Source: Candidatus Gastranaerophilales bacterium (GTDB taxonomy: Bacteria > Cyanobacteriota > Vampirovibrionia > Gastranaerophilales > Gastranaerophilaceae). From it: 53,070 nucleotides of DNA. The stretch spans positions 1-53,070 of the forward strand of contig CALVCQ010000014.1 in assembly GCA_944326115.1 (NCBI GenBank), written 5' to 3'. Under the pieces are notes generated by a model that saw nothing but the letters and a program-made list of their open reading frames with translations, was not told the DNA's origin and did no database searches. Positions 898 to 23,365 of the stretch are shown in pieces. A program made the position numbers and the translations under genes. How positions within the stretch are numbered: the first letter of the stretch is position 1; every line of letters starts with the position of its first letter.

Positions 898-1043
898 TGT
901 ATTCTCCTAATTCCAAAAGTTATAATATCCCTTATATTTATAAAGCGAATTTTTTTTAATAAATTGTCTGAAATGATATAATTATTAATAAATGTAAAGA
1001 TTATTTTTTTGAAAAAATTATTTGATTGATTAAAAATGTTTAT

Positions 1044-2042: not shown

Positions 2043-3264
2043 TAGATTTCAGATAATCTTTTCTTGATACATTTACCTGTTGAGCAGTATCAAGATTTTT
2101 TATTGTCACAGTATTTGTTTTTATTTCGTCATCCATTAAAATAAGTGCGTATTTTGCTGTTTTTGCAGCTTTATCCAGCTGTTTTTTAAATTTCCTGCAA
2201 GCATAATCAAAATCTGCACAGAATCCGGCGTTTCTTAATTCTTCAATAATCTTAAAGGCTTCTTTTGTATTTTCTGAGATAACAAAGACGTCCAATTTCT
2301 GTTCTGCTGTTTTTTGGGTCAGAGCATTAAGTCTTTCCATTCCCATTGCCCAGCCTACAGCCGGAGTTGCTGGTCCGCCGAGTGTTTCAACGAGGGAATC
2401 GTATCTTCCGCCACCGCAAACGGCATTTTGCGAACCAAGATTGTTTGATTTGATTTCAAATACTGTTCTGTTGTAATAATCCAGTCCTCTTACAAGAAGT
2501 TTATTTTCTTTAAAAGGTATATTTAGTGCATTTAAATATTCTTTTACTTTGTCATAATGTTCTTTGCATTCAGCACATATAAAATCACCGAGTATGACTT
2601 TTTGTATTTCTTCTTTTTCGAATATATTTTTGCAGGATTCAACTTTGCAATCCAGTATTCTTAAAGGATTTTTTTGATATCTGAAATTACAATCTTCACA
2701 CAAGTCTTTTAAGTAAGGTTTTAAAATATCTTTTATCGCATCTCTGTATTTTTTTCTGCATTCAGGACATCCCAGAGAATTAATTTCTATATCCAGGTCA
2801 TTTAAACCAAGTTCATTCAAATATTTGACAGCAAGATTTATTACTTCTGCATCGGCAGAAGCTTCAGCACAGCCAAACATTTCAACACCTACCTGATGGA
2901 ACTGTCTTTGTCTGCCCGCCTGAGGTCTTTCATATCTAAACATCGGTCCTTTGTACCACAATTTTACAGGTTGGGGCTGTCTTGAAAAGCCGTGTTCTAT
3001 GTATGCTCTTACTACTCCTGCTGTATTTTCCGGCCGCAGAGTAAGTGAACGTTCACTTTTTTCAAAAGTATACATTTCTTTGTTAACTATATCAGTTGAG
3101 TCGCCTACTCCTCTGGCAAAAAGCTCTGTTGCTTCAAAAATCGGAGTCCTGATTTCTGTGAAATTAGCTTTCGAAAATACTTCATAAGCTGTCTTTTCCA
3201 TTTTTTGCCAGTTTGTAATTTCTTCCGGCAGTATATCTTTTGTCCCTTTTTGTGCTTGTATCAC
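2032..3264 (-). CDS. hisS: Histidine--tRNA ligase
   Basis: Class II aminoacyl-tRNA synthetase that charges tRNA-His with histidine in the cytoplasm. The KGTKDILPEE start block, motif 2 (FRYERPQAGRQRQFHQ), the histidine-binding LVRGLDYYNRT segment and motif 3 (GWAMGMERL) are all visible, with a C-terminal anticodon-binding domain. Length of about 410 residues is normal. Two GTG starts are possible, at 3276 and 3264. I chose 3264 because GAGGT lies five bases before it and the protein then begins VIQAQKGTKD as in relatives; the other start lacks a site. A CxxC pair near residues 165-168 and further Cys pairs (CEDC, CAEC) sit in the insertion region and may bind metal. Its 3' end overlaps the converging barrel gene by 11 nt. 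Confidence 0.96.
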   Translation of the reverse strand: MIQAQKGTKDILPEEITNWQKMEKTAYEVFSKANFTEIRTPIFEATELFARGVGDSTDIVNKEMYTFEKSERSLTLRPENTAGVVRAYIEHGFSRQPQPVKLWYKGPMFRYERPQAGRQRQFHQVGVEMFGCAEASADAEVINLAVKYLNELGLNDLDIEINSLGCPECRKKYRDAIKDILKPYLKDLCEDCNFRYQKNPLRILDCKVESCKNIFEKEEIQKVILGDFICAECKEHYDKVKEYLNALNIPFKENKLLVRGLDYYNRTVFEIKSNNLGSQNAVCGGGRYDSLVETLGGPATPAVGWAMGMERLNALTQKTAEQKLDVFVISENTKEAFKIIEELRNAGFCADFDYACRKFKKQLDKAAKTAKYALILMDDEIKTNTVTIKNLDTAQQVNVSRKDYLKSIKI

Positions 3265-3377
3265 TTTATACCTCACTATCTGTCTATCTTATTATATATA
3301 AAAAACGGCTATTTCAATATGTCAAAATTTATAGTAAAATCATCTGGTAAATAATTATATTTTAAAGAGGCAGCCTT

Positions 3378-4412
3378 ATGGATTTTAAAAATTCTTTTAC
3401 TGTTAAAAATGTAAGCTTTTTTATTCTTATATTATTAATACTGTTTTTTATTATAAAAATGCCCGATATCACGCTGCTGTTATTCTGCGGTTATGTTATA
3501 GCCTGCGCAATAAATCCATTTGTAGACAAAATGTCTGAAAAAATTCCGAGATCAGCAGCAGTAACACTGATGATTACAATTATTACTATTGTTACTCTAG
3601 GTGTTTTTATTCCTATTTTTGTTATGGCGTTTAACGAAATAAGAGATTTTGTCAATCAGCTTCCACAACAAATTCAAAATATTCAGCATTTTTTTGATAC
3701 ATTTAAAATCGGCGGGCAGGATATTTCGCAGTATTTAAATATTGATGCTGTATTGAATAATTCGACAATGATTGCAAAGGAAGTTATAGACCGATCAATA
3801 AATATTACAATAGGGATTGTCGGTGTAATTACATTACTGGTTACTTTGAGCATTATAGTTTTCTTCATTTCAAATGACAGAGATAAAATAAAAGATTTTA
3901 CTTTGAAATTATTTCCTGTTTCTATTAGAAACAAAACTGCTTGCGTAATAGATGAACTGGAACTAAAAGTCGGAGGATATATAACCGCACAGTTATTGTC
4001 TATTACTATTGTAGGTATAGTTGTTGCACTGACTCTATTGGTGCTAAAAGTTGAATATGCTGTATTTTTAGGCTTTATATCCGCAGTTCTTGACCTTGTG
4101 CCAATAGTCGGACCGATTATTTCCGGCGTATTAATACTCCTAATTGCATTTCCAAAAGGTTGGCTTATTACTATAATTGCAATTGCTTCTCTATTATTAG
4201 GACAGTTTATTGAAAATAACTGGGCAAAGCCTTATTTCTTTTCAAAATATATGGATCTGCATCCTTTAGTGGTGATATTTTCATTTGTTATTGCTGCTAA
4301 ATTTCTGGGTGTAATTGGTGTCCTTATTGCTCCGGCAATTGCTGCAGTTATCGTTACTCTTTTTGATGAAATATATGTAAAAACAATGAATGATGCTGAA
4401 AGTGAAGATTGA
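3378..4412 (+). CDS. AI-2E family (PerM/UPF0118-like) membrane protein
   Basis: 344 residues with about seven or eight hydrophobic segments in the usual AI-2E transporter layout: two N-terminal helices, a central polar stretch around residues 85-145, a helix at about 147-165, and a C-terminal group including the DLVPIVGPIISG loop and the PLVVIFSFVIAAKFLGVIGVL block typical of the family. Members export small molecules or ions; the substrate here cannot be read from sequence, and the family name does not establish autoinducer transport. The ATG at 3378 is preceded by AAAGAGG at eight bases. The stop codon overlaps the start of the radical SAM gene (TGATG), so the two are probably co-translated. 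Lysine- and acid-rich residues close the C-terminus. Confidence 0.85.
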   Translation: MDFKNSFTVKNVSFFILILLILFFIIKMPDITLLLFCGYVIACAINPFVDKMSEKIPRSAAVTLMITIITIVTLGVFIPIFVMAFNEIRDFVNQLPQQIQNIQHFFDTFKIGGQDISQYLNIDAVLNNSTMIAKEVIDRSINITIGIVGVITLLVTLSIIVFFISNDRDKIKDFTLKLFPVSIRNKTACVIDELELKVGGYITAQLLSITIVGIVVALTLLVLKVEYAVFLGFISAVLDLVPIVGPIISGVLILLIAFPKGWLITIIAIASLLLGQFIENNWAKPYFFSKYMDLHPLVVIFSFVIAAKFLGVIGVLIAPAIAAVIVTLFDEIYVKTMNDAESED

Positions 4413-6004
4413 TGACAGATATAACTTTATATAATATTCCTGATAAAAATCCGGAAATAAATATCTGGATGGCATTTCCGTCAATGATGTCTTTTGGCAT
4501 GTCGTCATTAGGTTATATGTCTATAGTAAAGACTCTTGATATGAGAGCAGATTACTTTGTTGAAAAAATATTTACAGATACTGTTTCAACAAAACTTATG
4601 CCTGCTGGTGTCGATGTCATGGGTTTTTCTGTTTCTTTTGAAATTGATTTTTTAGGCATTTTCAGTATTTTAGAAAAATATTCAATACCGTTAAAATCTT
4701 GTGACAGAGATGATAATTCCCCTCTTGTTTTTGGAGGCGGACCTGTTTTGACGGCAAATCCCGAGCCTTACAGTGCTTTTTTTGACTTTATTATAATTGG
4801 AGATGCTGAAAAAATTGATTCTGAAATTATAGATGTAATAAAAATCAACAAACATTTACCCAAAAGTGAATTATTAGAAATTTTATCAAAAGTTCAGGGT
4901 ATATATGTTCCTTGTTTTACAAATTATGCCCCTCTAAAAGGTGTAACCGTCAAAAATGGTGCAACTTATACGGTTGAAAAACTAACTTGTTCTTTAAATA
5001 AGTGTATAACTACTCCTGTGCTTGCTGAAAAAAGTTTCTTTTCAAATACTTACGTTATAGAAGTAGTCAGAGGCTGTCCTCAAAGATGCGGATTCTGCAT
5101 TGCTTCATATTTAAATTTGCCGTATCGCTTTTGCAGCTATGATGAAATTATAAAAAGTATTGATACCGGATTGAAATACACAAATAAAATAGCCTTATTG
5201 GGTGCGTTAATTACAGCGCATCCTGATTTTGACAGAATATGTGAGTATATTTTGCAAAAGAAACAGCAGGTGCAGGATCTGGAATTGTCTGTATCTTCTT
5301 TAAGAGCTGACTCAATTTCACCTGTTGTTATAAAAACTCTTGTTGAGTGCGGTCAAAAACATTCAACTATTGCTATTGAAGCAGGTTCAGAAAGATTGAG
5401 AAAACTAATAAATAAAAATTTATCGGAAAAGCAAATATTTGATACAGTTAAAACCGCTTATCAAAATGGACTGAAAGGTCTGAAAATTTATGCAATGATT
5501 GGATTGCCTACAGAAACACAGCAAGATATTGATGAAATGGTTATGCTTGCACAAAGGTTAAAATCTTCTTTTAAAGATTTTGATTTTACTTTTTCTTTTT
5601 CTACATTTGTTCCAAAAGCACACACGCCTTTCCAATTTTGCGAAAGGGAATCTACAAAAATTCTTGAAAAAAAATATGAGTATCTCAAAAAAGAGTTTCA
5701 TAAGCTTGGCATGAAAATAAGAACTTCCAGTGTGAAATGGGATTATTGGCAGGCTCTTTTATCACGTGGAGACAGAAGGCTGGCAGATTATCTTGTCGAT
5801 GTTTATAAGTCAGGAGCAAATCTCGGTGCTTTCAAACAATGTTATAAGAAATTTGTTGATTCAAAAAATCTTCCCTCTTCCGACGATTATGCGCTAAATA
5901 ATCATGACCCGAATGAAATACTGGCATGGGATTTTATCTCTATCACTCCGGATAAGAATTCTTTAATAGCCGAATATAAAAGGCTTTTACCTGATATTAA
6001 GTAA
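4412..6004 (+). CDS. B12-binding-domain radical SAM protein
   Basis: 530 residues. A radical SAM core is marked by CPQRCGFC (C222, C226, C229 ligate the 4Fe-4S cluster), and the N-terminal 150 residues carry the FGGGPVLTANPEP and DFIIIGDAE blocks typical of cobalamin-binding-type N-terminal domains in this superfamily. The C-terminal region (SSVKWDYWQALLSRGDRRLADYLV) resembles the TIGR03960-like group that often accompanies a DUF2344 partner; no such partner is adjacent. The reaction is unknown. I chose the ATG at 4412, which overlaps the stop of the preceding gene; an in-frame TTG lies just before it. About 350 nt without a protein gene follow. Confidence 0.85.
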   Translation: MTDITLYNIPDKNPEINIWMAFPSMMSFGMSSLGYMSIVKTLDMRADYFVEKIFTDTVSTKLMPAGVDVMGFSVSFEIDFLGIFSILEKYSIPLKSCDRDDNSPLVFGGGPVLTANPEPYSAFFDFIIIGDAEKIDSEIIDVIKINKHLPKSELLEILSKVQGIYVPCFTNYAPLKGVTVKNGATYTVEKLTCSLNKCITTPVLAEKSFFSNTYVIEVVRGCPQRCGFCIASYLNLPYRFCSYDEIIKSIDTGLKYTNKIALLGALITAHPDFDRICEYILQKKQQVQDLELSVSSLRADSISPVVIKTLVECGQKHSTIAIEAGSERLRKLINKNLSEKQIFDTVKTAYQNGLKGLKIYAMIGLPTETQQDIDEMVMLAQRLKSSFKDFDFTFSFSTFVPKAHTPFQFCERESTKILEKKYEYLKKEFHKLGMKIRTSSVKWDYWQALLSRGDRRLADYLVDVYKSGANLGAFKQCYKKFVDSKNLPSSDDYALNNHDPNEILAWDFISITPDKNSLIAEYKRLLPDIK

Positions 6005-6040
6005 TGTAAAACTTCAATTATATTTTTATGTTTAAAAGGG

Positions 6041-6068
6041 TTGACATAAATTTTCTTGATGTCATAAT
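6041..6068 (+). promoter_or_regulatory. Sigma70-type promoter for a small transcript
   Basis: A perfect TTGACA lies at 6041-6046 and CATAAT (five of six bases of TATAAT) at 6063-6068, with a 16-bp spacer. Transcription would begin near 6075. No protein gene starts before the terminator at 6195, so this promoter most simply drives the small RNA described next. Confidence 0.65.
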
Positions 6069-6074
6069 AATAAT

Positions 6075-6220
6075 GTAAGGTTTAAGTGTAGTCGAAACAC
6101 TAAATAACATTTATTTTTTAACATTAATAACCCCGAACACATATAAACTCCTAAATAATAAACACAAAAGAGACCATTAGGATGCAGAAAACAAACCACT
6201 CTATTGAGTGGTCTTTTTTT
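6075..6220 (+). ncRNA. Putative small RNA of about 145 nt, unidentified
   Basis: The gene-free stretch 6005-6362 contains a good promoter and, about 125 nt downstream of the predicted start, an intrinsic terminator. A hairpin close to the 5' end (6081-6089 pairing with 6097-6104, with one bulged A) is followed by a long unstructured, A-rich segment containing ACTCCT (6147-6152), complementary to a ribosome binding site, and then the terminator. A 5' hairpin, single-stranded anti-SD core and terminator recall cyanobacterial Yfr1 in layout, but the sequence is not Yfr1. It might instead be a terminated leader of the fumarase gene 140 nt further on. I recognise no Rfam family. Confidence 0.5.
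6195..6220 (+). terminator. Intrinsic terminator of the small RNA
   Basis: Seven-pair stem ACCACTC/GAGTGGT with loop TATT (6202-6205), followed by a run of Ts at 6214-6220. A GACCA at about 6172-6176 could pair with the 3' arm TGGTC instead, so an alternative fold that disrupts the terminator is possible. Confidence 0.8.
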
Positions 6221-6362
6221 ATACATTTTGATTAAAATTTCAATAATTTTATATTTTATGATGTATTTTTGATATCAATTTATATATTTTTACCAAATTA
6301 AGTGTATTCGTGACAATTAATAACGATTTGCTTTTAAATCGTGAAAATATTATCATGTTTAA

Positions 6363-7727
6363 ATGTCTATTGTTGATACAAATTTAATAGAAACAGCAGT
6401 CGGTAATTTATGTTTAAAAGCAAACACCGAATATAATGCTGAGTTATATAAAGTGTTGTTGAATAAATATGAAACCGCAGATAATTTTGATAAAAAAAAT
6501 AAACTTGAAAACATACTAATCAATATAAAATCAGCGTATACTTCAAAACGTCCTTTATGTCAGGACACAGGTCAGGTTTTATTGTTTGTTGAAATAGGTC
6601 AGGATGTAAAATTAACCGGCAGACCTTTAAATGAGGCAATTAATTCGGGTGTGCGATCTGCTTACATTTCTTATTTATTTAGAAAATCAGTGGTTAAGAA
6701 TGCAATTTTTGACAGGTCAAATACAGAAACTAATACTCCTGCAATAATATATACAGATATAGTAAATGGTGATTCGATCAATATAAAACTGATGGTCAAA
6801 GGTGCAGGCTCTGAAAATTATTCATGTGTAAAAATGTTTAATCCTTCTGCTAGTGAAGAAAATATTTTTGATTTTATAAAAAACGCCGTTATTACATCTG
6901 GCGAAAAAAGTTGTCCGCCGCTTGTTCTTGGTATAGGTATCGGCGGTACTATGGATACTGCTGCAGTCATGTCTAAGAAAGCATTTTTCAAAAAAATAAA
7001 TAATGTGAGAGAAAATGAATTTAAAAACAAATTGCTAAGCTATCTATCTGATGTGTCTGATAATATTATTGATATAAAACTAATGACGTCACAAACCCAT
7101 ATAGCAAGTTTACCTGTAGCAATAACCATAAATTGCCATAGCTGCAGACACTGTGAATGTACAATTTCTAATTCGAAAATTTTTTATACGGAAAATCCCT
7201 GTGAATATAAAGAAATTCCGGTCACATCCAAATCTTTAATTAAAATAAATTCTGATGATATTGATAAAATCTTATCTTTAAAAAAAGGCGACAGAATACT
7301 TTTGTCCGGAGAAATTTATACAGCAAGAGATGCTGCACACAAATTGATTGCTGAATTTTATGAGAAGAATGAAGCTTTTCCTTTTGAGATTAATAAAAAG
7401 ATAATTTTTTATGCCGGTCCCTGTCCGGCAGCAGACGCTGAAATAATTGGTCCTATAGGACCGACTACGTCAACTAGAATGGATAAGTATTGTAAGTTAT
7501 TATATTCAAACGGTCTGCTGGCTACAATCGGCAAAGGTGAGCGTTCTCTATCGTGTGAAAAAGATATTTTAAAATATGGTGGCAGATACTTTAGTGCACA
7601 GGGCGGTATAGCGTGCTTATTATCAAAATGTGTAAAAAAATCACAGGTGATTGCATTTGAACACCTTGGAACAGAAGCTGTAAGAAAGTTATATGTGGAG
7701 GATATGCCTTTAACAGTTGAAATTTAG
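6363..7727 (+). CDS. Class I fumarate hydratase, alpha and beta parts fused
   Basis: 454 residues. Catalyses reversible hydration of fumarate to malate using an oxygen-sensitive 4Fe-4S cluster. The alpha part (1 to about 285) has CQDTGQ (C66), SCPPLVLGIGIGGT (C184) and INCHSCRH (C258); these three cysteines are the probable cluster ligands. The beta part (about 290-454) has GDRILLSGEIYTARDAAH, the FYAGPCPA loop and GPIGPTTSTRMD. Two-gene versions total about the same length, so this is a simple fusion, shorter than E. coli FumA. Tartrate dehydratase is the main alternative because the two families share these motifs. There is no Shine-Dalgarno site before the ATG; a 7-bp hairpin (6323-6342) sits 20 nt upstream. 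A bidirectional terminator follows. Confidence 0.88.
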   Translation: MSIVDTNLIETAVGNLCLKANTEYNAELYKVLLNKYETADNFDKKNKLENILINIKSAYTSKRPLCQDTGQVLLFVEIGQDVKLTGRPLNEAINSGVRSAYISYLFRKSVVKNAIFDRSNTETNTPAIIYTDIVNGDSINIKLMVKGAGSENYSCVKMFNPSASEENIFDFIKNAVITSGEKSCPPLVLGIGIGGTMDTAAVMSKKAFFKKINNVRENEFKNKLLSYLSDVSDNIIDIKLMTSQTHIASLPVAITINCHSCRHCECTISNSKIFYTENPCEYKEIPVTSKSLIKINSDDIDKILSLKKGDRILLSGEIYTARDAAHKLIAEFYEKNEAFPFEINKKIIFYAGPCPAADAEIIGPIGPTTSTRMDKYCKLLYSNGLLATIGKGERSLSCEKDILKYGGRYFSAQGGIACLLSKCVKKSQVIAFEHLGTEAVRKLYVEDMPLTVEI

Positions 7728-7730
7728 CCT

Positions 7731-7760
7731 AAAAAAAGACTCCTTAATGGAGTCTTTTTT
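7731..7760. terminator. Bidirectional terminator between fumarase and rpaB
   Basis: An 11-pair stem (7733-7743 with 7749-7759, core GACTCC/GGAGTC) and a TTAAT loop. It has an A-run on the left and a T-run on the right, so it can end transcription from the plus-strand fumarase gene and from the converging rpaB gene. Confidence 0.9.
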
Positions 7761-7762
7761 AT

Positions 7763-8512
7763 TTAATTAATTCTTTGAAACATATATCCTATTCCACGTG
7801 CTGTTAGAATCAATTCCGGATTAGCGGGATCTGTTTCGAGTTTTGAGCGTAATCTTGAAATATGTACATCAACAACTCTTGTATCGATGCGATGATCCGG
7901 CGGATACGCCCACACGTATTGAAGAATTTCGTTTCTTGAATATGCTTGTCCCGAGTTATTAACAAGCAGCTCAAGAAGGCTGAATTCCATACCTGTTAAT
8001 CTGATACGTTCATTCTTTCTGAATACCTGTCTTCTTGCTGTATCAATTTTTATATTACCGGTTGTAATCACATTTTTTGTAACCTTACCGGTTGATGGAG
8101 CTATTTCTCTGTTTGTTGCACGTCTCAAAACAGATTTTACACGGGCTTCCAATTCTTTAGGGCTGAACGGTTTTACTACATAATCATCTGCACCGAGTTC
8201 AAGACCTGTAATTCTTTCAGAAACATCACCCAGTGCTGTTAATATAATAATCGGGACATCAGATGTTCTTCTTATTTCCCTGCAAACACCGTAACCGTCC
8301 ATTTTTGGCATCATAACATCCAAAACAACCAGATCCGGATTTTCTTTATTAAAAGCTGCAACTGCCTCTTCTCCGTCAGCAGCTGTAACAACATCATAAC
8401 CGATCATACTTAATCTTGTTTCAAGAATCCTTCTGATACTTGCTTCATCATCAGCAATTAAAATCTTTTGCTTTGCTTCTGCCTGTTCATTAGCTTCAGT
8501 ATTTGGACACAT
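7763..8512 (-). CDS. rpaB: OmpR-family response regulator, RpaB-like
   Basis: 249 residues. Receiver domain at about 16-130 with the acidic pair D21/D22, phosphoacceptor D65, T92 and K114; DNA-binding winged-helix domain at about 145-249. The receiver (KILIADDEASIRRIL, LDVMMPKMDGYGVCREIR) matches cyanobacterial RpaB very closely, as I recall it. In cyanobacteria RpaB works with the kinase NblS and controls stress and light-responsive genes; what it controls in a non-photosynthetic relative is unknown. No kinase gene is adjacent. The ATG is preceded by GATAGG at moderate distance. The gene reads away from thrS, with a large palindrome in the shared upstream region. Confidence 0.9.
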   Translation of the reverse strand: MCPNTEANEQAEAKQKILIADDEASIRRILETRLSMIGYDVVTAADGEEAVAAFNKENPDLVVLDVMMPKMDGYGVCREIRRTSDVPIIILTALGDVSERITGLELGADDYVVKPFSPKELEARVKSVLRRATNREIAPSTGKVTKNVITTGNIKIDTARRQVFRKNERIRLTGMEFSLLELLVNNSGQAYSRNEILQYVWAYPPDHRIDTRVVDVHISRLRSKLETDPANPELILTARGIGYMFQRIN

Positions 8513-14222: not shown

Positions 14223-15143
14223 ATGAAAAGAATTATACTGGCTTTTTTGATAACAGCGTTTTTTTCGGCTGCTGCTTTTGCTGCTAAATATAAAGTAAAT
14301 ACAAGCGGCAGAGTAACTTCTCCGGAAGGTAAAGTTCAGCAAAATAGTGTTTTAAACAATCAGACAAATTTATACAAAAATTATTATGCACCACAGTATG
14401 TGAATTCGCAAAAAGTTCTTTCAGGTCCGGTTGGAACAATAGATATAGTAATGGATTACTCAGGAAGTATGCTGTACTGGATTCAGGAAGCACAAAGAAC
14501 TATGTCTCAAATAATTGCACAACTGCCTGCGTCAACAAGTATCGGTTTCAGAGTATTCGGGCAGAACGGAGGAAATAATCCTTACACACCTAATCTCGCC
14601 AAGGTTAAAGAGATTGTAAAAACTGCCGGCGGCAAATACAAAGTCACAACAGCTAATGATAGTTATTTGGGAAATACATCAGGTTCTTGTTCTGCAACAA
14701 AACAGGTGGTTCCTATTTCATCAAATAATATACAAGCATTGTCTGCAGGAATGGGTTCAGTTAACATAGGCGGATCTACACCTCTGACTTTCGGTTTACA
14801 TCAGGCAGTAACACAAGATTTTGGAAGTATGTCACAATCTTTCCCTAAAAAAATTGTACTTATAACGGACGGTGGTGAGAATTGCGGAGGAGATCCATGT
14901 GAATTTGCCAGAGAGCTTATGCGAAAAAGAAATGATATACATATAGATGTTGTACTCGTATCATCTTCATCCCAGATGCTTAAATGTCTGGCTGATACAA
15001 CCGGCGGACATTTTTATACAACAAGCGATATATCAAGCTTTTCTGACGTTTTAATACAGTCGATGAAAACTCCGCCAAATCAGGTACAGACCACTGTGCC
15101 ACAGCAACAACCTGCTCAGCAGTATGAATATATTGACTACTAA
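14223..15143 (+). CDS. Secreted von Willebrand factor A domain protein
   Basis: 306 residues with a clear signal peptide (cleavage near AAAFAAK). A vWA domain spans about 70-285: the MIDAS DxSxS is intact (D78, S80, S82 in IVMDYSGSM), followed by the threonine loop GGSTPLT and the LITDGGEN aspartate. Four cysteines in the domain (in GSCSA, ENCGGDPC and LKCLAD) may form disulfides, fitting an exported protein. The closing 20 residues are Gln/Pro-rich. vWA domains bind metal and protein partners; the partner is not shown here. The gene converges with a 4-nt overlap on the minus-strand envelope operon that contains a second vWA-like protein, so a shared pathway is likely but unproven. Confidence 0.85.
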   Translation: MKRIILAFLITAFFSAAAFAAKYKVNTSGRVTSPEGKVQQNSVLNNQTNLYKNYYAPQYVNSQKVLSGPVGTIDIVMDYSGSMLYWIQEAQRTMSQIIAQLPASTSIGFRVFGQNGGNNPYTPNLAKVKEIVKTAGGKYKVTTANDSYLGNTSGSCSATKQVVPISSNNIQALSAGMGSVNIGGSTPLTFGLHQAVTQDFGSMSQSFPKKIVLITDGGENCGGDPCEFARELMRKRNDIHIDVVLVSSSSQMLKCLADTTGGHFYTTSDISSFSDVLIQSMKTPPNQVQTTVPQQQPAQQYEYIDY

Positions 15144-16156
15144 TTTAGGTCAACTTCAAAACTTCCGCCGTACATTTTTACTGATAATTTTAGTGTCTGA
15201 TTTTTGTATGCTGCCGGAGGCGTACGATAGCTAGGTGTCTGCATCATTGCGGAATAGACAGCATCATTTAAACTGTCATTATTTGATTGTTGTGAAAATG
15301 CACGGTTAATTAAGTTACCAGATGAATCTAATTTAAATGAAATAACGCAGTTGCCGTCACCGGTTACTGTCGCAAAATTTATATTAGACGCAATTTTATT
15401 TCTTAAACCTATTTTGTAATTTGCATACTCTTTTTGTTGAGCAGCCGTGTTAATTTTAGGTTTAGCTGTTGTTTTGGGAGTTGATGCCGTTTGCTTTTTT
15501 TCTGTAGCCTTTGGTACAGGTACAGTTTTTACGGAAGTTACAGGTTTGCTTACAGGTTTTGATGTCGCTTTTTGTGTATTATAGGTTTTGGGTTTATATT
15601 TAGAGACAGATTGTTCGGAGACTTTTTGAGGTGCAGCTGTTCTGTTTGCTGCGCCGTAATTTGTAACAATATTTCCTGCTGTGTTTGTTGCGTGTCTTGT
15701 TGCATTTGTATAGCTGTCTACAACTTTTGTGACAATAGGAAATGATGTTTTTTGTTTGTTATCGTCAGAAATCGTTTTTGCTGACTGTTTTCTTTGTTTT
15801 GATTCAATCCATATATCGTCAATATCCGGAATACTTTTTGCCGCAAGAACAGGTTGTTTTTTTTCTGCAGTTTTATCAGTACTATTTTTATTGCTGTCAC
15901 TGCTTCCCGGAAAAAATATTGTAATAAATGATAGTATTATACAAATAATAAAAAATGCAATAGATTTTCTGTCAACAGGACTGTAATTTATCGCATCACA
16001 GGTATCATAGTCTTTATTTTCATCATTGTATTCATAATCAGTATTATTGTAATAAAATTCTTCACTTTCATTTTCTATTTCAAATATATCATTGCCGCAT
16101 TCGCAATAATCTGGTTTAATATTATATTCATGTCCGCATTCAGTGCATTTGTACAT
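15140..16156 (-). CDS. Zinc-ribbon, membrane-anchored protein with TonB/TolA-like C-terminus
   Basis: 338 residues. A cytoplasmic zinc-ribbon-like knuckle (C4, C7, C18, C20) is followed by an acidic Tyr/Asn-rich stretch, one transmembrane helix at about 65-84, a long Lys/Thr/Pro/Ala linker (about 90-235) and a C-terminal domain (about 245-338) with the WRxxI-like start NYKIGLRNKIASNI and VISFKLDSSGNLINRAF, as in TonB/TolA C-terminal domains. This layout could connect the cytoplasm to the outer envelope. It is the last gene of the six-gene operon, starting 4 nt after its neighbour, with AAGGA overlapping that stop codon. A zinc ribbon on a TonB-like protein is unusual. Confidence 0.65.
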   Translation of the reverse strand: MYKCTECGHEYNIKPDYCECGNDIFEIENESEEFYYNNTDYEYNDENKDYDTCDAINYSPVDRKSIAFFIICIILSFITIFFPGSSDSNKNSTDKTAEKKQPVLAAKSIPDIDDIWIESKQRKQSAKTISDDNKQKTSFPIVTKVVDSYTNATRHATNTAGNIVTNYGAANRTAAPQKVSEQSVSKYKPKTYNTQKATSKPVSKPVTSVKTVPVPKATEKKQTASTPKTTAKPKINTAAQQKEYANYKIGLRNKIASNINFATVTGDGNCVISFKLDSSGNLINRAFSQQSNNDSLNDAVYSAMMQTPSYRTPPAAYKNQTLKLSVKMYGGSFEVDLN

Positions 16157-16160
16157 GATA

Positions 16161-17006
16161 TTAATTCCTTACTTTTTCTATATCTTTAAAGTCAGACGGA
16201 GTGCTGTATTTTGTAGTATTAGAAATTTTCCAGCCGCCTTCAACAGTTGTGGCAATTCTGTTTGATCCCTGCGGAAAATTGAGAATAGAACGACCCTGAT
16301 AACTTTTTATTACAGGTGCTATGTATTGAATTGCAAAAGGAGTAAATGATGCATTAGTTGACCAGGTTTGGATGTTTGTAACTTTTCCGTATTTATCCAC
16401 ATCAAATTGAAATTTAAAAACAGTACCCTGAGGAACAATGGGAAGCCTTACATCTTTCATCAACTGATTCTGAATATCCGAACGCCATTTGTTCCATTTT
16501 ATAAGTTCTGTTTGTTCAGCGGATTGTTGTGTCTGTGCAGCTGTTTTTGCCGGTGTCGCAGGCTTTGATACAGTAGTGTTTTTTTGTTTAGCCACTGTTT
16601 TTGTTTTAGCTGCGGGTTTTGATTTTACTGTATTTGTTTTAACCTGTTTTGTTTGTACAGGCTTTGTTGTTTTTACAACTTTTGTACTGACCTGCTGTTT
16701 TTGTGAAGATGTTTTTGTGACCGCTGTTGTGGTTTTCTTTGCGGTTTGAATCTTTTCTGTTTCTTTTGTTACCGGCTGTATTTTGTTAATGTTATTAATT
16801 TTTTCCCGTACTATTTTTTTGTCGGTTTTGACAGCGGAAGTAGTAGGCAGTTCTTTTGTTTCAGTTGATACTTTATCTGCCTGTACAATTGTATATGCAG
16901 AATCGTATATCAAAACCTCTTTGTGCATTTCCGGTTTTAATATGACTACCAGCAAGGTAGAAACTACTATAAAAGCTATAATTACAATTGAAAATATTCT
17001 GTACAA
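16161..17006 (-). CDS. TonB/TolA-like membrane-anchored protein
   Basis: 281 residues. One N-terminal transmembrane helix (about 4-23) is followed by KPEMHKE (24-30), a long low-complexity linker of Lys, Thr, Val and Gln (about 50-165), and a C-terminal domain (about 168-255) with WNKWRSDIQNQLMKD and FQFDVDKYGKVTNIQTW, the pattern of TonB/TolA C-terminal domains. It is probably inner-membrane anchored and spans the periplasm. Its start is a TTG with AAGG seven bases upstream. The juxtamembrane PxMHK motif recurs in the first gene of the same operon. No ExbB/ExbD-type motor is recognisable nearby, so it is not assigned as a classical TonB. Confidence 0.65.
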   Translation of the reverse strand: MYRIFSIVIIAFIVVSTLLVVILKPEMHKEVLIYDSAYTIVQADKVSTETKELPTTSAVKTDKKIVREKINNINKIQPVTKETEKIQTAKKTTTAVTKTSSQKQQVSTKVVKTTKPVQTKQVKTNTVKSKPAAKTKTVAKQKNTTVSKPATPAKTAAQTQQSAEQTELIKWNKWRSDIQNQLMKDVRLPIVPQGTVFKFQFDVDKYGKVTNIQTWSTNASFTPFAIQYIAPVIKSYQGRSILNFPQGSNRIATTVEGGWKISNTTKYSTPSDFKDIEKVRN

Positions 17007-17022
17007 AAGCTGCCTTCTCTTC

Positions 17023-18618
17023 TTATCGGTCTAATTTTGCAATTAATTCATCACAAGTGTAAATTTCGAATTTTGTCTGGCTTAGCATATATGTTTCAGC
17101 CAGGAGCAAAGCTGTCGGAACAAGTGCTGCTACGGAACTTAAAAACATACCGCTTATATCACCGCCCATTTCTTGCATAAAGTATGAAATATTCATTGAA
17201 AATTCAATAAATATTATACAAATGCCTATAATAAATGAGCGTCTCATTTCAGTGTCCAGTTTTTTTACGCCCTGTAATCCGTATATATCAACTCCATGCT
17301 GAAGATAGTTGCTGTATCCGTCATTTTTTAATACATTTGAAGCCTGAATCTTTTTATTGCAGAAAAAAGCATTAACAAAAGCAAAGAATGCAAATATTAT
17401 CAAGAATGACGCAAGTACCAGAAAGACAGGACTGAATCTCAAACCTGAAATTCTTATCCAGCCGGCTGCTTCGGGAAAACACATTGCAAGTGTATTGGAT
17501 ACTCCGTATGCCAGGAATGGTGCTGTTAAAATACCAAGAATTGTTTCACCTGCTGATTTTAATTGTAAATTGAATAATCTGTCTTTTATGTTTCTGATTT
17601 TTGGTGCACTTAAGTTGTTAATAAAGTGTTCAATCCATTGCTGGTATTCACGCATAACTTTTTCAAAATCTTCTCTGTATTCATATTTATCAAGTTCTTT
17701 TGAAAGAATTGTACTGTTGTGTTTAAAATATCCGCATGATACTGCAAGAGCAATACACCCTGCTGTAAAGAACAGTGACATAAATATAGCAAAAAACGGC
17801 ATTGATTTCGGAGTCATATAATATAGAAGATTTATAACATAAACGCCCGCAAAGAATATCAATGGCGAAACTATCATGAATTTTTCGGCTGCTGCATTAG
17901 AGGAATACTCTGTATTTACCTTATTTTGTAAAAATAAAAATATACCCTGCTTCAAGGTCAAACCTATTGCATAAATTATTATCGAATAAATTACTACAAG
18001 TCTCATATTAACAGGCATCTGTATCACAGTAGCTGCGTCTTTTAACGGTAACCCGGTTAGATAATTTGCAACACCGAATGCCAGTACTATTGATGCTGCG
18101 AACAGACCGATATGCAGGAATATTCCTGCCTTTGAGTTCATTGATATTTTGTTTTTTAAATCATTAATCTGAAATCCAACCTGTTTAATTATGGAAACAC
18201 GTGCCTGCTCAATACAGGATTTTTTTTCTTCTATTCTCATTTTAGCTGTTGAATTATTGTTGTTGGAAGATGACTGAGGTTGTTCTAATCTTGTTTGAAA
18301 AGGCTTTTCTATAACATTGGAGGTTTGTCCTGCAGAGTATTTTATCGTGATAAATTCGTCAGAATCTTTTACCATTAATTTACACATATTGTCAAATTCC
18401 AATTTTTGCGCTAAAGGTACACCTTTAAATAAAAAATTATTACAGTTAAGCGGATTTAAAATGCAACATTTGCCTGTATTTTTGTCGTACTGAACAGTCA
18501 GCACATAATCAAAACCAAAGTTTATACAGCAATTGCCGCCTGCCTTAGATGAAATATTTATCAAATCCTCTGATTCAAATGTATTTTGTGTATTTCTGGT
18601 AATTATAGTAAAAGCCAT
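17023..18618 (-). CDS. Polytopic membrane protein of unknown function
   Basis: 531 residues. The first 150 or so are soluble and contain a Cys-containing segment (GGNCCINFGFDYVLTV, GKCCILNPLNC) of predicted beta character, then a Ser/Asn spacer. From about 165 on there are about eight hydrophobic helices in two groups separated by a charged stretch (residues 310-360, EDFEKVMREYQQWIEHF) that resembles the cytoplasmic linker of proton-channel-type proteins only loosely. The central polar region and the late ISYFMQEMGGDISGMF loop are the most distinctive parts. I do not recognise the family. The ATG has TAGGA six bases upstream, overlapping the end of the vWA-like gene, and the gene sits between it and the TonB-like genes. 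Confidence 0.6.
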   Translation of the reverse strand: MAFTIITRNTQNTFESEDLINISSKAGGNCCINFGFDYVLTVQYDKNTGKCCILNPLNCNNFLFKGVPLAQKLEFDNMCKLMVKDSDEFITIKYSAGQTSNVIEKPFQTRLEQPQSSSNNNNSTAKMRIEEKKSCIEQARVSIIKQVGFQINDLKNKISMNSKAGIFLHIGLFAASIVLAFGVANYLTGLPLKDAATVIQMPVNMRLVVIYSIIIYAIGLTLKQGIFLFLQNKVNTEYSSNAAAEKFMIVSPLIFFAGVYVINLLYYMTPKSMPFFAIFMSLFFTAGCIALAVSCGYFKHNSTILSKELDKYEYREDFEKVMREYQQWIEHFINNLSAPKIRNIKDRLFNLQLKSAGETILGILTAPFLAYGVSNTLAMCFPEAAGWIRISGLRFSPVFLVLASFLIIFAFFAFVNAFFCNKKIQASNVLKNDGYSNYLQHGVDIYGLQGVKKLDTEMRRSFIIGICIIFIEFSMNISYFMQEMGGDISGMFLSSVAALVPTALLLAETYMLSQTKFEIYTCDELIAKLDR

Positions 18619-18626
18619 TTGTCATC

Positions 18627-19295
18627 CTACCTTCCGATTGCTTCTAAAAGTCTTCTTTGTGATTTATTAACAGTATGTTCATTAACAACGATTAATTTTT
18701 TTTCTCCAAGTACCGGATTGAGCTTTGTTTTTACATAATCTAATTTTTCAGGATCAGCATAAGCAAATAGCATTGATATTTCCGGAATATATTTTTTTAT
18801 GTTTTTTACATTCTCTGGCAAAGTTTCCCAGTCTATTTGTTTGTTTATATCTCCATTTTCTTCCAAAGCTCCTATTACGACAATAGAGGGACGAAATCCT
18901 TCTTTTTTCATATTTAAACTGTGCTCAAATGCTTTTTTTATTGCAATGCCGTATGATGTGTTATATTCTTTTGTATCAGATTTTGTAAATTCTTCCAGTG
19001 CATTGGTTATTGCTGCACCATCAGTAGGTGCACCTTCATATATTAAATATGAAGTATCTGTTACTGTCAGAATTTTTATACTATCCTCAGGGTCGAGAAT
19101 AGCACAGACTGATTTCAGGTATTTTATTTCTTCATCAAGTTTTTGTTGATTGTATGCTGATGAATCTACAACAAAAATAACAGCAGCCGGTTTAAAATCA
19201 TCTAGCTCAATATTCTGTATTGCACAAAAAATTAATTTGCAAACTATAGAACAAATCAGTATTAATATTCCTATTGTAATTAATTTTTTGTTCAC
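18627..19295 (-). CDS. Membrane-anchored, degenerate vWA-like protein
   Basis: 222 residues. One N-terminal transmembrane helix (about 5-25), then an alpha/beta domain of vWA type: AVIFVVDSSAYNQ at 38-50 sits where the MIDAS motif is expected, but the DxSxS reads D44-S-S46-A-Y48, so its last serine is lost. GAPTDGAAITNALEEF may supply the threonine loop and SIVVIGALEENGD the later strand. Metal binding may therefore be weak or absent. It starts with GTG, preceded by GAGGA. It is the third gene of the operon and complements the intact vWA protein encoded at 14223-15143. Confidence 0.6.
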   Translation of the reverse strand: MNKKLITIGILILICSIVCKLIFCAIQNIELDDFKPAAVIFVVDSSAYNQQKLDEEIKYLKSVCAILDPEDSIKILTVTDTSYLIYEGAPTDGAAITNALEEFTKSDTKEYNTSYGIAIKKAFEHSLNMKKEGFRPSIVVIGALEENGDINKQIDWETLPENVKNIKKYIPEISMLFAYADPEKLDYVKTKLNPVLGEKKLIVVNEHTVNKSQRRLLEAIGR

Positions 19296-19306
19296 GAGAT
19301 CCTCTG

Positions 19307-20356
19307 CTAATAATTCAATACCACATTTAAGGGCTGTTCTAGAATGACTTCTATATCAGTATATGCTGGTATTTCAGCATCTACACCTTTTTCAGCAACA
19401 TTTGTTGCCAGTGCGGTTCCGCCTGTTACACTTGCCCCTATTATTGCCCCTCGGGCAAGATCTGAGGTGTCACCAGTAAGTGCAGCAAAAGCAAGACCGA
19501 CAATAGCTCCTATTGCGGCATAGACAAGAGTGTTTGTTAAAACTTTTTTGACCTTACCCTCATTTGTTACTTTAAAATCTATATCTTGCGTAACGAGATT
19601 ATATGTTTTACCTTTAGGTGTTACCAGTTTATTAAAGGACATTTTTACGGATCCGTTTCTTGAACCCAGCTTTGCGTGATTAGCATCTGTCAGAGTTCCG
19701 TATAAAAGACTGCCTTGCTGTGCTACAATACAATTTTTGTATATCCAATCGCTCTTTAAAACAGCTGTTATAGAATCTCCTTTTTTTGCAATGGCAGTAT
19801 TAACACCAGATTGCAAATATGCATCAATTTTTGTGCCTTTGGGAATATTACCGACAAACCCTTTAAGAGATGTACTCTTATTTTTGTTCTGTTTTTCTGT
19901 TTTTGTTTGTTGTACTGATGTTTTAGGTTCTTCAAAAGAATATTTTTTAGTCTGACCGGTTATAGTTGTTTGCACTACTTTGGCAAAATTGCTCAAATGC
20001 ATGGCGTTTTCAGATTTTTGGTATTCAATATCCTGTTTTTTTATTTTTTTTATAATTTTTTTATGTATTTTTTTACTGGAATCATCGGATTCAAAATAAT
20101 AAAATAAATTTGATCCGCTTTGCTGCAATACAACAGAGATATGCCTTTCCGGTTTTTTCGTTGAGACTGAATATGATGAATATACAGAATTTTTCTTTTT
20201 TATTTCATAAGAATTCTCAGCTAAAACACTTTCTACCTGCGGTATTAAAACACTTTTATCGATGTTTTTTAAATAATTAAGTTCGCTGAAAGCAAAACAG
20301 ATGTTTGTTGAAAAGAAATATAATATGCATAATAATAATGCTGTAAACTTTTTCAT
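19307..20356 (-). CDS. Exported protein with TrbI/VirB10-like domain
   Basis: 349 residues with a signal peptide (MKKFTALLLCILYFF, cleavage near CFA). The middle (about 165-260) has GNIPKGTKIDAYLQSGVNTAI, VAQQGSLLYGTLTDANHAKLG and a KGKTYNL block similar to the beta-rich TrbI/VirB10 domain, followed by a glycine-zipper helix (about 270-320, AAIGAIVGLAFAAL, GAIIGASVTGGTALA) and a C-terminal DIEVILEQPLNV strand, as in outer-membrane-spanning VirB10-like proteins. No other type IV secretion genes are present, so it is probably a structural envelope component of this operon. The ATG has AAGGA upstream overlapping the previous stop. Confidence 0.6.
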   Translation of the reverse strand: MKKFTALLLCILYFFSTNICFAFSELNYLKNIDKSVLIPQVESVLAENSYEIKKKNSVYSSYSVSTKKPERHISVVLQQSGSNLFYYFESDDSSKKIHKKIIKKIKKQDIEYQKSENAMHLSNFAKVVQTTITGQTKKYSFEEPKTSVQQTKTEKQNKNKSTSLKGFVGNIPKGTKIDAYLQSGVNTAIAKKGDSITAVLKSDWIYKNCIVAQQGSLLYGTLTDANHAKLGSRNGSVKMSFNKLVTPKGKTYNLVTQDIDFKVTNEGKVKKVLTNTLVYAAIGAIVGLAFAALTGDTSDLARGAIIGASVTGGTALATNVAEKGVDAEIPAYTDIEVILEQPLNVVLNY

Positions 20357-20359
20357 ATA

Positions 20360-20566
20360 CTACTTATCCTTAATTTTTGTCGTTGTAATTTCTCTGGTAA
20401 CTGTTGTATCACCATTTGAGTCAATTTTGATTATATGTTTTATTATACTGATTTCAAACTGTTTATGCATTTTGGGCTGTAAAATACATAATAACAGGGT
20501 TATTAGTGCAATACCTGTTATAAGCAATGTTAGGGGTGTTTTTATATTTAATTTATTAATATTCAT
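20360..20566 (-). CDS. Small single-pass membrane protein
   Basis: 68 residues from the ATG at 20566, which has TGGAG at nine bases; an upstream in-frame ATG at 20581 overlaps that site and is less likely. One helix at about 12-29 is followed by QPKMHKQF, nearly the same juxtamembrane motif as in the TonB-like protein at 16161-17006, then a short polar tail rich in Thr, Lys and Asp. It is the first gene of the six-gene minus-strand operon, 3 nt before the next start, and its function is unknown. Confidence 0.6.
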   Translation of the reverse strand: MNINKLNIKTPLTLLITGIALITLLLCILQPKMHKQFEISIIKHIIKIDSNGDTTVTREITTTKIKDK

Positions 20567-20752: not shown

Positions 20753-23365
20753 ATGAATAAATCAATATTTTTATTATTTTTTATACTACAAGTATTTTTT
20801 CAAAATGTATGTTTAGCAGCTACTGTTGATATTAATTCATTTAATGAACTTATGAATTCAGTATTAAATAACGGTGATACTTATAACTTTACAAATAATC
20901 TTGAATCAACTGAATCTATAGACAGACATTTTTTTAACTACGATATCAATTTTGACGGTAATATGTATTATATAGACGGAAAGCAGACCTTTGGCGGGTT
21001 TATACTAAGCAGAGATAATTCATTTGATGAAATTGTTATCCAGAATTGTGCAGGACAGATGTATCAGAACTCAAATTTTGCCGGTGCAGTTTTTAATTTT
21101 GGCGGACAAACCGAAATCTCCGGCTCTGATTTTAAAAATAATTTTGCTGATTCAAGTAATAACAATTTTGGTATTGGCGGTGCAGTTTATAATTTGCAAG
21201 GCGGCGGGATAATTGTTAATAATACAAATTTTGAAAACAATTATACTCTTGGAGCAGGTTCAATTGGCGGTGCAGTATCCAACGGCTATAATGATAATGG
21301 TACAGCAAAATTAGATTTAAATAATGTTAATTTTACTAATAATCATGCTTCCGGTTATACATTTATTGAAGGCGGAGCCTTATACAATACCGGAATTGCA
21401 ACTCTTAACAATACAAACTTTATTTCAAACTATGCAGAGTCTCTGGAAGAACAGCGTCCGCAGCAGAGTTTTGTGTATGGCGGTGCATTAAATAATATAG
21501 GCACAATAACAATAAATAATTCTGATTTTAACGGAAATTATATAAAATCTACTGATAATTCAATATCTTACGGCGGTGCTATCTTTAACGGCGGTAAGTT
21601 CAACGGCGAAAATATAGAAGTAAGCAATAATACTATAGATTCTGCTTTGTATGGAGACGGCGGTGCTATTTACAATAGTTCAACAGGAGTAATGACTCTT
21701 AGTAATTCCCTGATAGAAAACAATAAAATTTCATCTGATATTCAATACGGCAACGGCGGAGGCGTATATAATGCCGGTACATTAGACTTAAATAATACAG
21801 CTATGCGCAATAATTATGACAGAAATAACACCCCCAACGACATTTATAACACAGGTGTTGTGAATTTTAACGGCAACGGTACAAATTTAATTCAAAGCGG
21901 AATTACAGGCTCTGGCACAATTAATAAGAACGACGGGGGGGTGATTGAACTCGGAGGGGAAAATCAAAATTATACAGGAAATTTTAATTTAAATGCAGGT
22001 ACCTTGACCCTTCTTCAAAATGCTCAATATTTCAATGCGGTAAATACAACTTTCGGAAATAATGTCAATTTCAATATAATAAATAATGAAATTAATAATA
22101 TTAATTTTGGCAATTTAAATCTGGACGGAACTGCAAATATTTTTGCAGATGTAAATCTTACAGGATCAGTCATGGACAAAATAAGCGCTGATTCTGTATC
22201 AGGTGGCGGGAACTTATTTGTTGCCGGTCTAAATTTGTCAGGGACTCCAAAAGCAGCTGAGATATCTATTCCTTTTGCTGATAATGTTTTAAAAGATCGT
22301 GTATCATATAACTCCGTCAATATTCGCACACCAATATACAACTATAATGTCAGTTATAATTCCTCTAACGGAAATTTTCAATTCATAAGAGGCGGATTTG
22401 ATTCTTCGATACTGGCAGCACAGGTAGCAACACAGCTTGCCGGTTATTTAACCCAGATAGACACATACCGCAATGTGTTTGCAAACCTTGATATGGTAAT
22501 GATAATGCCGCCTGAAATAAAAACAGGCTTTAGCACGGTAAATAAGACTGCATCAGCCGAGAATTTCATCTTTTCGCCTTTCATCATGCCCGAGACACAT
22601 AATGGTATATGGTTTAAACCTTATTCAACATTTGAATCAGTTGGACTTAAAAACGGTCCGAGCGTATCAAATGTAAGCTACGGGAGCCTTGTCGGGGTTG
22701 AAAGCGGATTAAAAAGGCTCAGAAATGATTGGTATTCTCTATACGGTGTATATTTGTCATACAACGGATCACATCAGGCTTATGACGGCAACAGTATTTA
22801 TAACAACGGCGGTCTTGGCGGAATTTATTCTGCATTTTATAAAGGGAATTTTTTTACTGCCTGGACTGTTGATGCAGGTGCAAATTCAGCAGAAGCAGCT
22901 ACGTACTTCGGGCAAACAAATTTTAATATGTTTAATACAGGTATTGCACAAATGACTGGATATAATATACATACATTTAATAAGCATTTTGTAATACAGC
23001 CTTCTGTTTTAACTTCATATTCATTTGTTAATACTTTTAACCACAATGCCTATCAAAATATACAAATAAATACAGAGCCTTTACATGCACTTCAAATTGT
23101 ACCGGGTATTAAATTAATAGGAAATTTTAAAAATTATTTTCAACCTTATCTCGCAGTTTCTATGGTTTGGAACATAATAGACCATGCAAAGTTTAAGGCA
23201 GATGATATTTATTTACCAAATCTTTCAATAAAACCTTTTGTACAATACGGCGCAGGTGTTCAAAAAAGATGGGGTGAAAGATTAACAGGATTTTTTGAAA
23301 CAATGCTTAGAAACGGCGGCAGAAACGGTGTTGTTCTGCAATTCGGATTTAGGATTAGTATATAA
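20753..23365 (+). CDS. Autotransporter with Pmp-like GGA(I/V/L) repeat passenger
   Basis: 870 residues. Signal peptide MNKSIFLLFFILQVFF..CLA. The passenger (about 25-560) has eight spaced GGAxxN-type motifs (GGAVFN, GGAVYN, GGAVSN, GGALYN, GGALNN, GGAIFN, GGAIYN, GGGVYN) alternating with FxxN elements such as NFENN and DFKNN, the repeat signature of chlamydial polymorphic membrane proteins, consistent with a right-handed beta helix. An autotransporter beta-barrel occupies about 600-870, with KPFVQYGAGVQKRWGERL and ending VVLQFGFRISI. It is therefore surface-displayed and probably an adhesin. The ATG has no close Shine-Dalgarno site. The stop directly abuts that of the converging mlaE gene. 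Confidence 0.85.
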   Translation: MNKSIFLLFFILQVFFQNVCLAATVDINSFNELMNSVLNNGDTYNFTNNLESTESIDRHFFNYDINFDGNMYYIDGKQTFGGFILSRDNSFDEIVIQNCAGQMYQNSNFAGAVFNFGGQTEISGSDFKNNFADSSNNNFGIGGAVYNLQGGGIIVNNTNFENNYTLGAGSIGGAVSNGYNDNGTAKLDLNNVNFTNNHASGYTFIEGGALYNTGIATLNNTNFISNYAESLEEQRPQQSFVYGGALNNIGTITINNSDFNGNYIKSTDNSISYGGAIFNGGKFNGENIEVSNNTIDSALYGDGGAIYNSSTGVMTLSNSLIENNKISSDIQYGNGGGVYNAGTLDLNNTAMRNNYDRNNTPNDIYNTGVVNFNGNGTNLIQSGITGSGTINKNDGGVIELGGENQNYTGNFNLNAGTLTLLQNAQYFNAVNTTFGNNVNFNIINNEINNINFGNLNLDGTANIFADVNLTGSVMDKISADSVSGGGNLFVAGLNLSGTPKAAEISIPFADNVLKDRVSYNSVNIRTPIYNYNVSYNSSNGNFQFIRGGFDSSILAAQVATQLAGYLTQIDTYRNVFANLDMVMIMPPEIKTGFSTVNKTASAENFIFSPFIMPETHNGIWFKPYSTFESVGLKNGPSVSNVSYGSLVGVESGLKRLRNDWYSLYGVYLSYNGSHQAYDGNSIYNNGGLGGIYSAFYKGNFFTAWTVDAGANSAEAATYFGQTNFNMFNTGIAQMTGYNIHTFNKHFVIQPSVLTSYSFVNTFNHNAYQNIQINTEPLHALQIVPGIKLIGNFKNYFQPYLAVSMVWNIIDHAKFKADDIYLPNLSIKPFVQYGAGVQKRWGERLTGFFETMLRNGGRNGVVLQFGFRISI

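Follow-up and report, generated by a model that had tools for sequence, protein, structure and literature searches.

A co-conserved cluster encoding TolA/TonB-like arms, von Willebrand factor A proteins and a polytopic membrane hub in a family of gut Cyanobacteriota

Gene organization of the cluster

The DNA stretch analysed here (the window, 53,070 nt) comes from the 2.15-Mb draft genome of a Gastranaerophilales-type bacterium, a non-photosynthetic member of the Cyanobacteriota, and carries a group of envelope genes that appears to combine familiar outer arms with a new inner-membrane hub. Six genes on the minus strand, named here mini, TrbI-like, vWAi (a membrane protein with a von Willebrand factor A domain, vWA), Poly (the hub), arm and zinc arm, are met by a converging gene for an exported vWA protein, vWAx (Table 1). 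An original prediction made from the sequence of the window had described the six genes as closely packed, with gaps of 3-16 nt, and this is borne out: every open reading frame (ORF) lies where it had been placed, the intergenic gaps are, in order, 3, 11, 8, 16 and 4 nt, and zinc arm and vWAx overlap tail to tail by 4 nt. The ribosome binding sites said to overlap the preceding stop codons were recognised in part, as purine-rich stretches that adjoin or cross the preceding stop in several of the genes, not in all. No Rfam family was matched between 10 and 26 kb of the window, scans for promoters and terminators gave no clear excess over shuffled sequence, and PADLOC and NCBIfam gave no match above cut-off for the module proteins.

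Table 1. Features of the cluster and their positions in the window
Feature	Position	Strand	Description	Basis
mini	20360..20566	-	68-amino acid single-helix protein, helix then P-x-M-H-K; homologous to arm N-terminus	ORF and hhalign
TrbI-like exported protein	19307..20356	-	signal peptide; TrbI-like C-terminal domain with glycine-zipper insertion	
vWAi	18627..19295	-	one N-terminal helix; vWA domain predicted periplasmic; metal ion-dependent adhesion site (MIDAS) lost in window copy	
Poly (hub)	17023..18618	-	FHA-fold domain and ~8 predicted transmembrane helices	
Poly FHA-fold domain, residues 1-96	18331..18618	-	93 residues aligned to 6ccd	
Poly membrane region, residues 168-512	17083..18117	-	conserved E358, E472, E508	
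TonB/TolA-like arm	16161..17006	-	N-terminal helix and P-x-M-H-K, low-complexity linker, C-terminal domain	
Arm C-terminal domain, residues ~159-265	16212..16532	-	predicted model	
Zinc-ribbon TonB-like arm	15140..16156	-	CxxC/CxC ribbon (residues 1-24), one helix, linker, TonB_2 (residues 245-319)	
vWAx	14223..15143	+	intact MIDAS; conserved segments at residues 22-31 (mature N-terminus) and 299-304 (C-terminus)	

Conservation and distribution

The original prediction had named co-conservation in relatives as one point on which the module should be judged. A scan with profile hidden Markov models found the order mini, TrbI-like, vWAi, Poly, arm, zinc arm kept in 18/18 named loci of other species, counting one (L010) in which the zinc arm is cut by the contig end and the vWAx region lies beyond it; these relatives, which were found by similarity, are mostly Candidatus Gastranaerophilales or Melainabacteria metagenome-assembled genomes, the remainder being uncultured bacteria. 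The converging vWAx gene is present in 15 of the 18, being absent from L016 and L017, with L010 cut before its position. Because like packing and identical order are seen again in relatives, the packing goes beyond chance, and the sequence comparisons support the cluster as a real, co-conserved envelope module.

The scan covered 47 selected loci, 45 of them with a full Poly (L093 and L098 repeat the contigs of L012 and L005). vWAi lies immediately upstream of the full Poly in 42 of the 45 loci, and a TonB/TolA-type arm immediately downstream in 42 as well (40/43 in both cases when the repeated contigs are left out). There is also a shorter, second form of the cluster consisting of vWAi, Poly and arm only, and a third with vWAi, Poly and zinc arm (L090, L092).

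Poly was matched in 82 of 194 genomes of the class, with all listed matches within one family; four of the 82 genomes hold a free-standing copy of its N-terminal 100 residues only. vWAi was matched in 79 of the 194, that is, in the 78 genomes with full-length Poly plus G056, whose match is marginal (E 8.8e-4), the two lists having been compared by eye. In a sample of the phylum Poly was found in 128/386 genomes, all from the same single family, and in the genus in 19/23 congeners. Among these gut bacteria, a little-studied family, the module is widespread; phyla outside the Cyanobacteriota were covered only by a pattern scan, which picks up close relatives. A mobile origin was considered and rejected, the module having no match among the plasmid or phage records searched.

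The TolA/TonB-type arms

The C-terminal domain of the arm, which follows a disordered linker, was modelled with confidence (predicted local distance difference test, pLDDT, ~79-95). The first 16 PDB matches of this model in Foldseek were all C-terminal domains of TonB, TolA, HasB or FusB. In VIA comparisons the top 17 rows were all of TolA/TonB type, with Pseudomonas TolA domain III (1lr0) at Z 8.3, a root-mean-square deviation (rmsd) of 3.5 and 114 aligned residues, whereas the best unrelated row reached Z 4.3. A Z just over 8 is modest, yet the TolA/TonB rows stand clear of the unrelated ones, and the domain as modelled has the TolA-III/TonB fold. The arm had no Pfam match, and profile comparison of its C-terminal domain with the TonB family gave a probability of 0.4, although the folds agree.

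The zinc arm matches Pfam TonB_2 narrowly in the window (22.5 bits against a cut-off of 22), and the family was matched in 17/17 zinc arms. The zinc ribbon that had been noticed on one TonB-like protein is confirmed by four N-terminal cysteines, invariant in 17/17. A search of PDB sequences with the zinc arm returned one designed protein (E 2.4e-5) with no passing stretch of its own and otherwise weak matches, TonB among them at E 1.2.

The known motors of TolA and TonB are proton-driven and belong to a single family. A Ser-His-Leu-Ser (SHLS) motif in the TonB/TolA helix binds the motor (PMC7391070; PMC12204202). The resident TonB family of these bacteria carries S-x-x-x-H within its first 90 residues in 30/30 sequences, inside the transmembrane helix in those inspected. 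A His in the transmembrane helix was found in 0/18 arms and 0/17 zinc arms. This difference bears on the possibility that both arms act as accessory TonB proteins run by the chromosomal ExbB/ExbD, with Poly and vWAi serving elsewhere. Such motors are at hand, since MotA/ExbB-type proteins were matched in 23/23 congeners and a TonB-ExbB-ExbD-ExbD cluster is present in this genome; however, the arms lack the helix His that the resident TonB proteins have, and they travel with Poly, so that we regard this explanation as distinctly unlikely.

After its helix the arm has P-x-M-H, usually P-x-M-H-K, and the same is found in mini. The mini and arm families are related (hhalign probability 97.6, E 3e-12), and because they also share P-x-M-H-K after the helix, a common docking site for the two proteins is suggested.

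The membrane hub Poly

The most unusual part of the module is Poly, which joins an FHA-like domain to about eight predicted helices and which the original prediction had listed simply as a polytopic membrane protein. Its residues 1-95 form a beta-sandwich in an AlphaFold2 model (pLDDT mostly 75-85), which matches the FHA fold both in Foldseek (top match 6ccd, E 9.7e-5, TMt 0.72) and in VIA (6ccd, Z 12.0, rmsd 2.4, 93 residues aligned); on this model, the N-terminal domain has an FHA fold. Classical FHA domains use an Arg and a Ser to bind phosphothreonine. With columns placed by eye, there was no Arg at column 24, where 23/24 sequences have Ser, and no S-R-x-H-like run within columns 36-45; since the binding residues were not seen at the matching columns, the domain is more likely to serve for docking than for phosphothreonine binding.

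Judged by its hydropathy and loop charges, the protein may have eight membrane helices, with its N- and C-terminus both in the cytoplasm. E358 and E472 are conserved in 70/70 non-identical sequences and E508 in 69/70, with E472 sitting within a hydrophobic core. Comparison by hhalign with single ExbB, MotA and ZorA sequences gave probabilities below 1 (0.3 for ExbB). Pfam returned nothing above cut-off for Poly, and in PDB sequence searches neither Poly nor the arm nor the TrbI-like protein drew a convincing match. A relation to tetraspanins was also considered, on matches in 7/24 sequences (best E 4e-4, window copy below cut-off), and was dismissed as noise from membrane composition. Poly appears, from its sequence, to be an inner-membrane hub of a kind for which the databases searched gave no match.

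The disposition of the domains invites a reading without energy input, namely a passive signalling or tethering complex in which the exported vWA proteins would sense outside and the FHA domain and the zinc ribbon would relay inside. It would account for vWA proteins on one side and FHA and zinc-ribbon domains on the other, but no kinase, regulator or sigma factor was found in the conserved set, the FHA domain lacks the Arg and Ser expected of a phosphothreonine binder, and the intramembrane glutamates of Poly are conserved. We therefore hold a passive complex to be unlikely.

The vWA proteins

vWAx has a Pfam vWA match above cut-off (E 1.3e-7), and the DxSGS sequence that starts the MIDAS is intact in 15/15 vWAx proteins, in agreement with the original prediction of an intact vWA protein in the converging gene. 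It looks exported, with a predicted signal peptide of its own. Directly after this peptide, residues 22-31 show a mean conservation of 0.89, compared with 0.60 just after them and 0.74 in the vWA domain, and the C-terminus, Q-x-Y-E-F/Y-I, is conserved as well, following a variable stretch. TolB is described as binding TolA through an N-terminal strand (PMC7391070), and for this reason residues 22-31 may be put forward, purely by analogy, as a candidate docking strand. Diverged vWAx paralogues form arrays of four (L084, positions 672-4439) and two (L086, positions 4010-5638), divergent from a second cluster copy that lacks vWAi.

vWAi has a Pfam VWA_2 match slightly under cut-off (E 3.2e-5), and profile comparison revealed no similarity between it and vWAx. 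The operon had been credited with a vWA-like partner whose broken MIDAS would be paired with the intact one of vWAx. The site is indeed broken in the window (S48Y and D143A); of 66 non-identical homologues, however, 64 have Ser at position 48 and 64 have Asp at position 143, and judging from these sequences the broken MIDAS is a local loss and not a feature of the system. A designed pairing of an intact with a broken site was accordingly rejected, the loss being limited to the window copy and a few others. Other MIDAS changes occur in the copies of L063, L087 and L069, and the genomes of the four altered copies (G000, G205, G138, G156) each also hold a second vWAi, a pattern that would fit a relaxation of constraint following duplication.

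Comparison of vWAi with ExbD by hhalign gave a probability of 1.2, and the vWAi helix contains Asp, Glu or His in 0/66 sequences. The closest published idea is that of vWA proteins anchored in the membrane that act with TolQ-like motors, next to which they are encoded (PMC12204202). vWAi is likewise a membrane-anchored vWA protein tightly tied to one polytopic membrane protein, but it lacks the SHLS His and the transpore Asp that mark the two classes of that paper and so falls outside both; the partner there is TolQ-like while Poly is not detectably so.

In this genome a second vWAi-Poly copy is adjoined by short ZorA-like (295 amino acids) and ZorB-like (229 amino acids) genes (L003, positions 6342-7922; G000:C39), with no further Zorya gene recognised by eye among the ORFs next to the pair. 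The ZorAB-like pair was considered as a partner of Poly and discarded as a chance neighbour, as tblastn did not find it in L050-L100; the module proteins themselves are without PADLOC match.

The TrbI-like exported protein

The match of this protein to Pfam TrbI (E 7.2e-5, 23.2 bits) lies below the curated cut-off of 35. A related gene directly adjoins TonB in 30/30 loci retrieved, these being the 30 best-scoring of 97 genomes searched (28 of this family and 2 of another), and ExbB was found near the pair in 21/30, the flank often ending there. The order in this genome is BamA, TrbI-like, TonB, ExbB, ExbD, ExbD (L107, positions 2837-6481; G000:C29), and BamA beside the pair was seen in this genome only. 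The operon protein and its TonB-adjacent relative are homologous (hhalign probability 99.9, E 2e-35), and therefore a TrbI-like exported protein accompanies TonB/TolA-type proteins twice in this genome.

The TrbI/VirB10-like domain could also point to a device for the secretion or surface display of vWAx, and perhaps of the neighbouring autotransporter-like protein, in which the TrbI-like protein would form part of an outer pore. The vWAx arrays beside second cluster copies would fit this idea. On the other hand, no ATPase, VirB7 or VirB9 was recognised in the cluster, the TrbI-like protein appears to carry a cleavable signal peptide where VirB10 has an inner-membrane anchor, and vWAx has a signal peptide of its own. 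We consider this the least probable of the alternatives.

Relation to Ton, Tol-Pal and type IV secretion

The original prediction held that the set resembles no named system. This stands insofar as the cluster, on the features compared, does not qualify as TonB-ExbB-ExbD, Tol-Pal or type IV secretion and drew no PADLOC match, but it was put too strongly, given the TolA-III/TonB fold of the arm, the branch of the TrbI-like family that lies beside TonB and the vWA-TolQ pairs of PMC12204202. With Ton the module shares the TonB-type C-terminal domains of both arms, but no ExbB/ExbD partners were found in its operon with Pfam; tonB is not always next to its motor genes (PMC12204202). With Tol-Pal it shares the fold of TolA domain III, but TolQ/TolR motor genes were not found in the operon, and TolB_N was matched in 0/23 congeners (a control search matched in 3/14 genomes). 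The transmembrane SHLS His of both systems is missing from the module arms, and their motors showed no relation to Poly in the profile comparison made, which used single sequences. The likeness to both lies in single-helix arms with a disordered linker and a TolA-III/TonB-type C-terminal domain, and in an exported protein whose N-terminus has a short conserved stretch. With VirB10/TrbI type IV secretion it shares a TrbI-like C-terminal domain, below the curated cut-off, with a signal peptide in place of the inner-membrane anchor; no other type IV genes were recognised in the operon set with Pfam. Classing the module under Ton, Tol-Pal, type IV secretion or one of the two vWA classes of PMC12204202 is thus not warranted, although it may work in a Tol-like manner.

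TonB-dependent receptor barrels were found in 2/23 congeners and 13/117 genomes of the family, whereas TonB_C and MotA/ExbB were each matched in 23/23 congeners, and with TolB_N not found and these receptors few, TonB-type proteins here are mostly without their textbook targets. Literature searches found no report joining Melainabacteria with von Willebrand factor and TonB, or with Tol-Pal. Searches pairing Gastranaerophil- or Vampirovibrio with TonB gave only papers unrelated by title, and those with TonB, VirB10, TrbI or ExbB gave genome papers. A search for an inner-membrane operon with FHA, von Willebrand factor and TonB gave just one Pseudomonas study, on a kinase and type VI secretion according to its abstract.

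A possible trans-envelope module

We would give an even chance to the reading that the cluster encodes a trans-envelope coupling module, particular to a single family of gut Cyanobacteriota. Comparisons with relatives and with known proteins provide its basis, namely the co-conservation, the folds, and a set from which motor genes and the motor-binding His are missing. As to the assembly and docking, we infer that Poly and vWAi would form a platform in the inner membrane, on which the arms would dock via their transmembrane helices, arm and mini through the helix and the P-x-M-H-K that follows. Disordered linkers would carry the arms across the periplasm to outer partners, which may be the TrbI-like protein, vWAx or both. 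Contact might be made through short conserved segments at the protein ends by addition of a strand, in the way that TolB binds TolA. The FHA domain of Poly and the zinc-ribbon arm could report to the cytoplasm or anchor the assembly in it. Least certain is the energisation of the module, in which, speculatively, the intramembrane glutamates of Poly would carry ions and so power a pull on the outer membrane.

Several findings weigh against this reading. vWAi is missing from 3/45 Poly loci (L084, L086, L091) and an arm from another 3/45 (L003, L055, L057, the last close to a contig end), TrbI-like, mini and vWAx are absent from several other cluster variants, and 4/23 congeners live without Poly. 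The Foldseek E-values of the arm are weak (0.05-0.36, best 0.053). The TrbI-like family is class-wide and multicopy (193/194 genomes), so that the protein is not diagnostic of the module. Many uncharged residues around the Poly glutamates are equally invariant, and because the membrane region was modelled poorly (pLDDT <50 over residues 334-531), the case for ion passage is one of conservation only.

A bolder form of the proposal, which we consider fairly unlikely, is that Poly and vWAi make up a new class of ion-driven engine in the inner membrane, unrelated to the 5:2 motors of MotA, TolQ and ExbB, that would power arms of TolA/TonB type, with a TrbI-like or vWA protein as the outer partner on which they act, in bacteria without TolB and mostly without TonB-dependent receptors. 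Arms of the TolA/TonB fold that lack the motor-binding His travel here with a different, highly conserved membrane hub, and if it is true that this hub powers them, it would amount to a second way in which work on the outer membrane can be driven. The module also raises the question of which targets TonB-type proteins have in a lineage where TonB-dependent receptors are few; a candidate is the TrbI-like exported protein that recurs beside TonB.

Neighbouring and related genes

Free-standing homologues of the FHA-like domain of Poly, 99 amino acids long, are encoded in genus g6 (L094, positions 6021-6320; L095, positions 6798-7097), next to a gene that we read as TolC-like and outer-membrane; they have no neighbour gene in common with the module. 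Beside the module in the window (positions 20753-23365, plus strand) lies the gene for an autotransporter-like protein of 870 amino acids without Pfam match, which also adjoins the module in L004, L008, L021 and L091. It contains repeated GGA(I/V)xN-type motifs, which we take to be similar to the repeats of chlamydial Pmp proteins.

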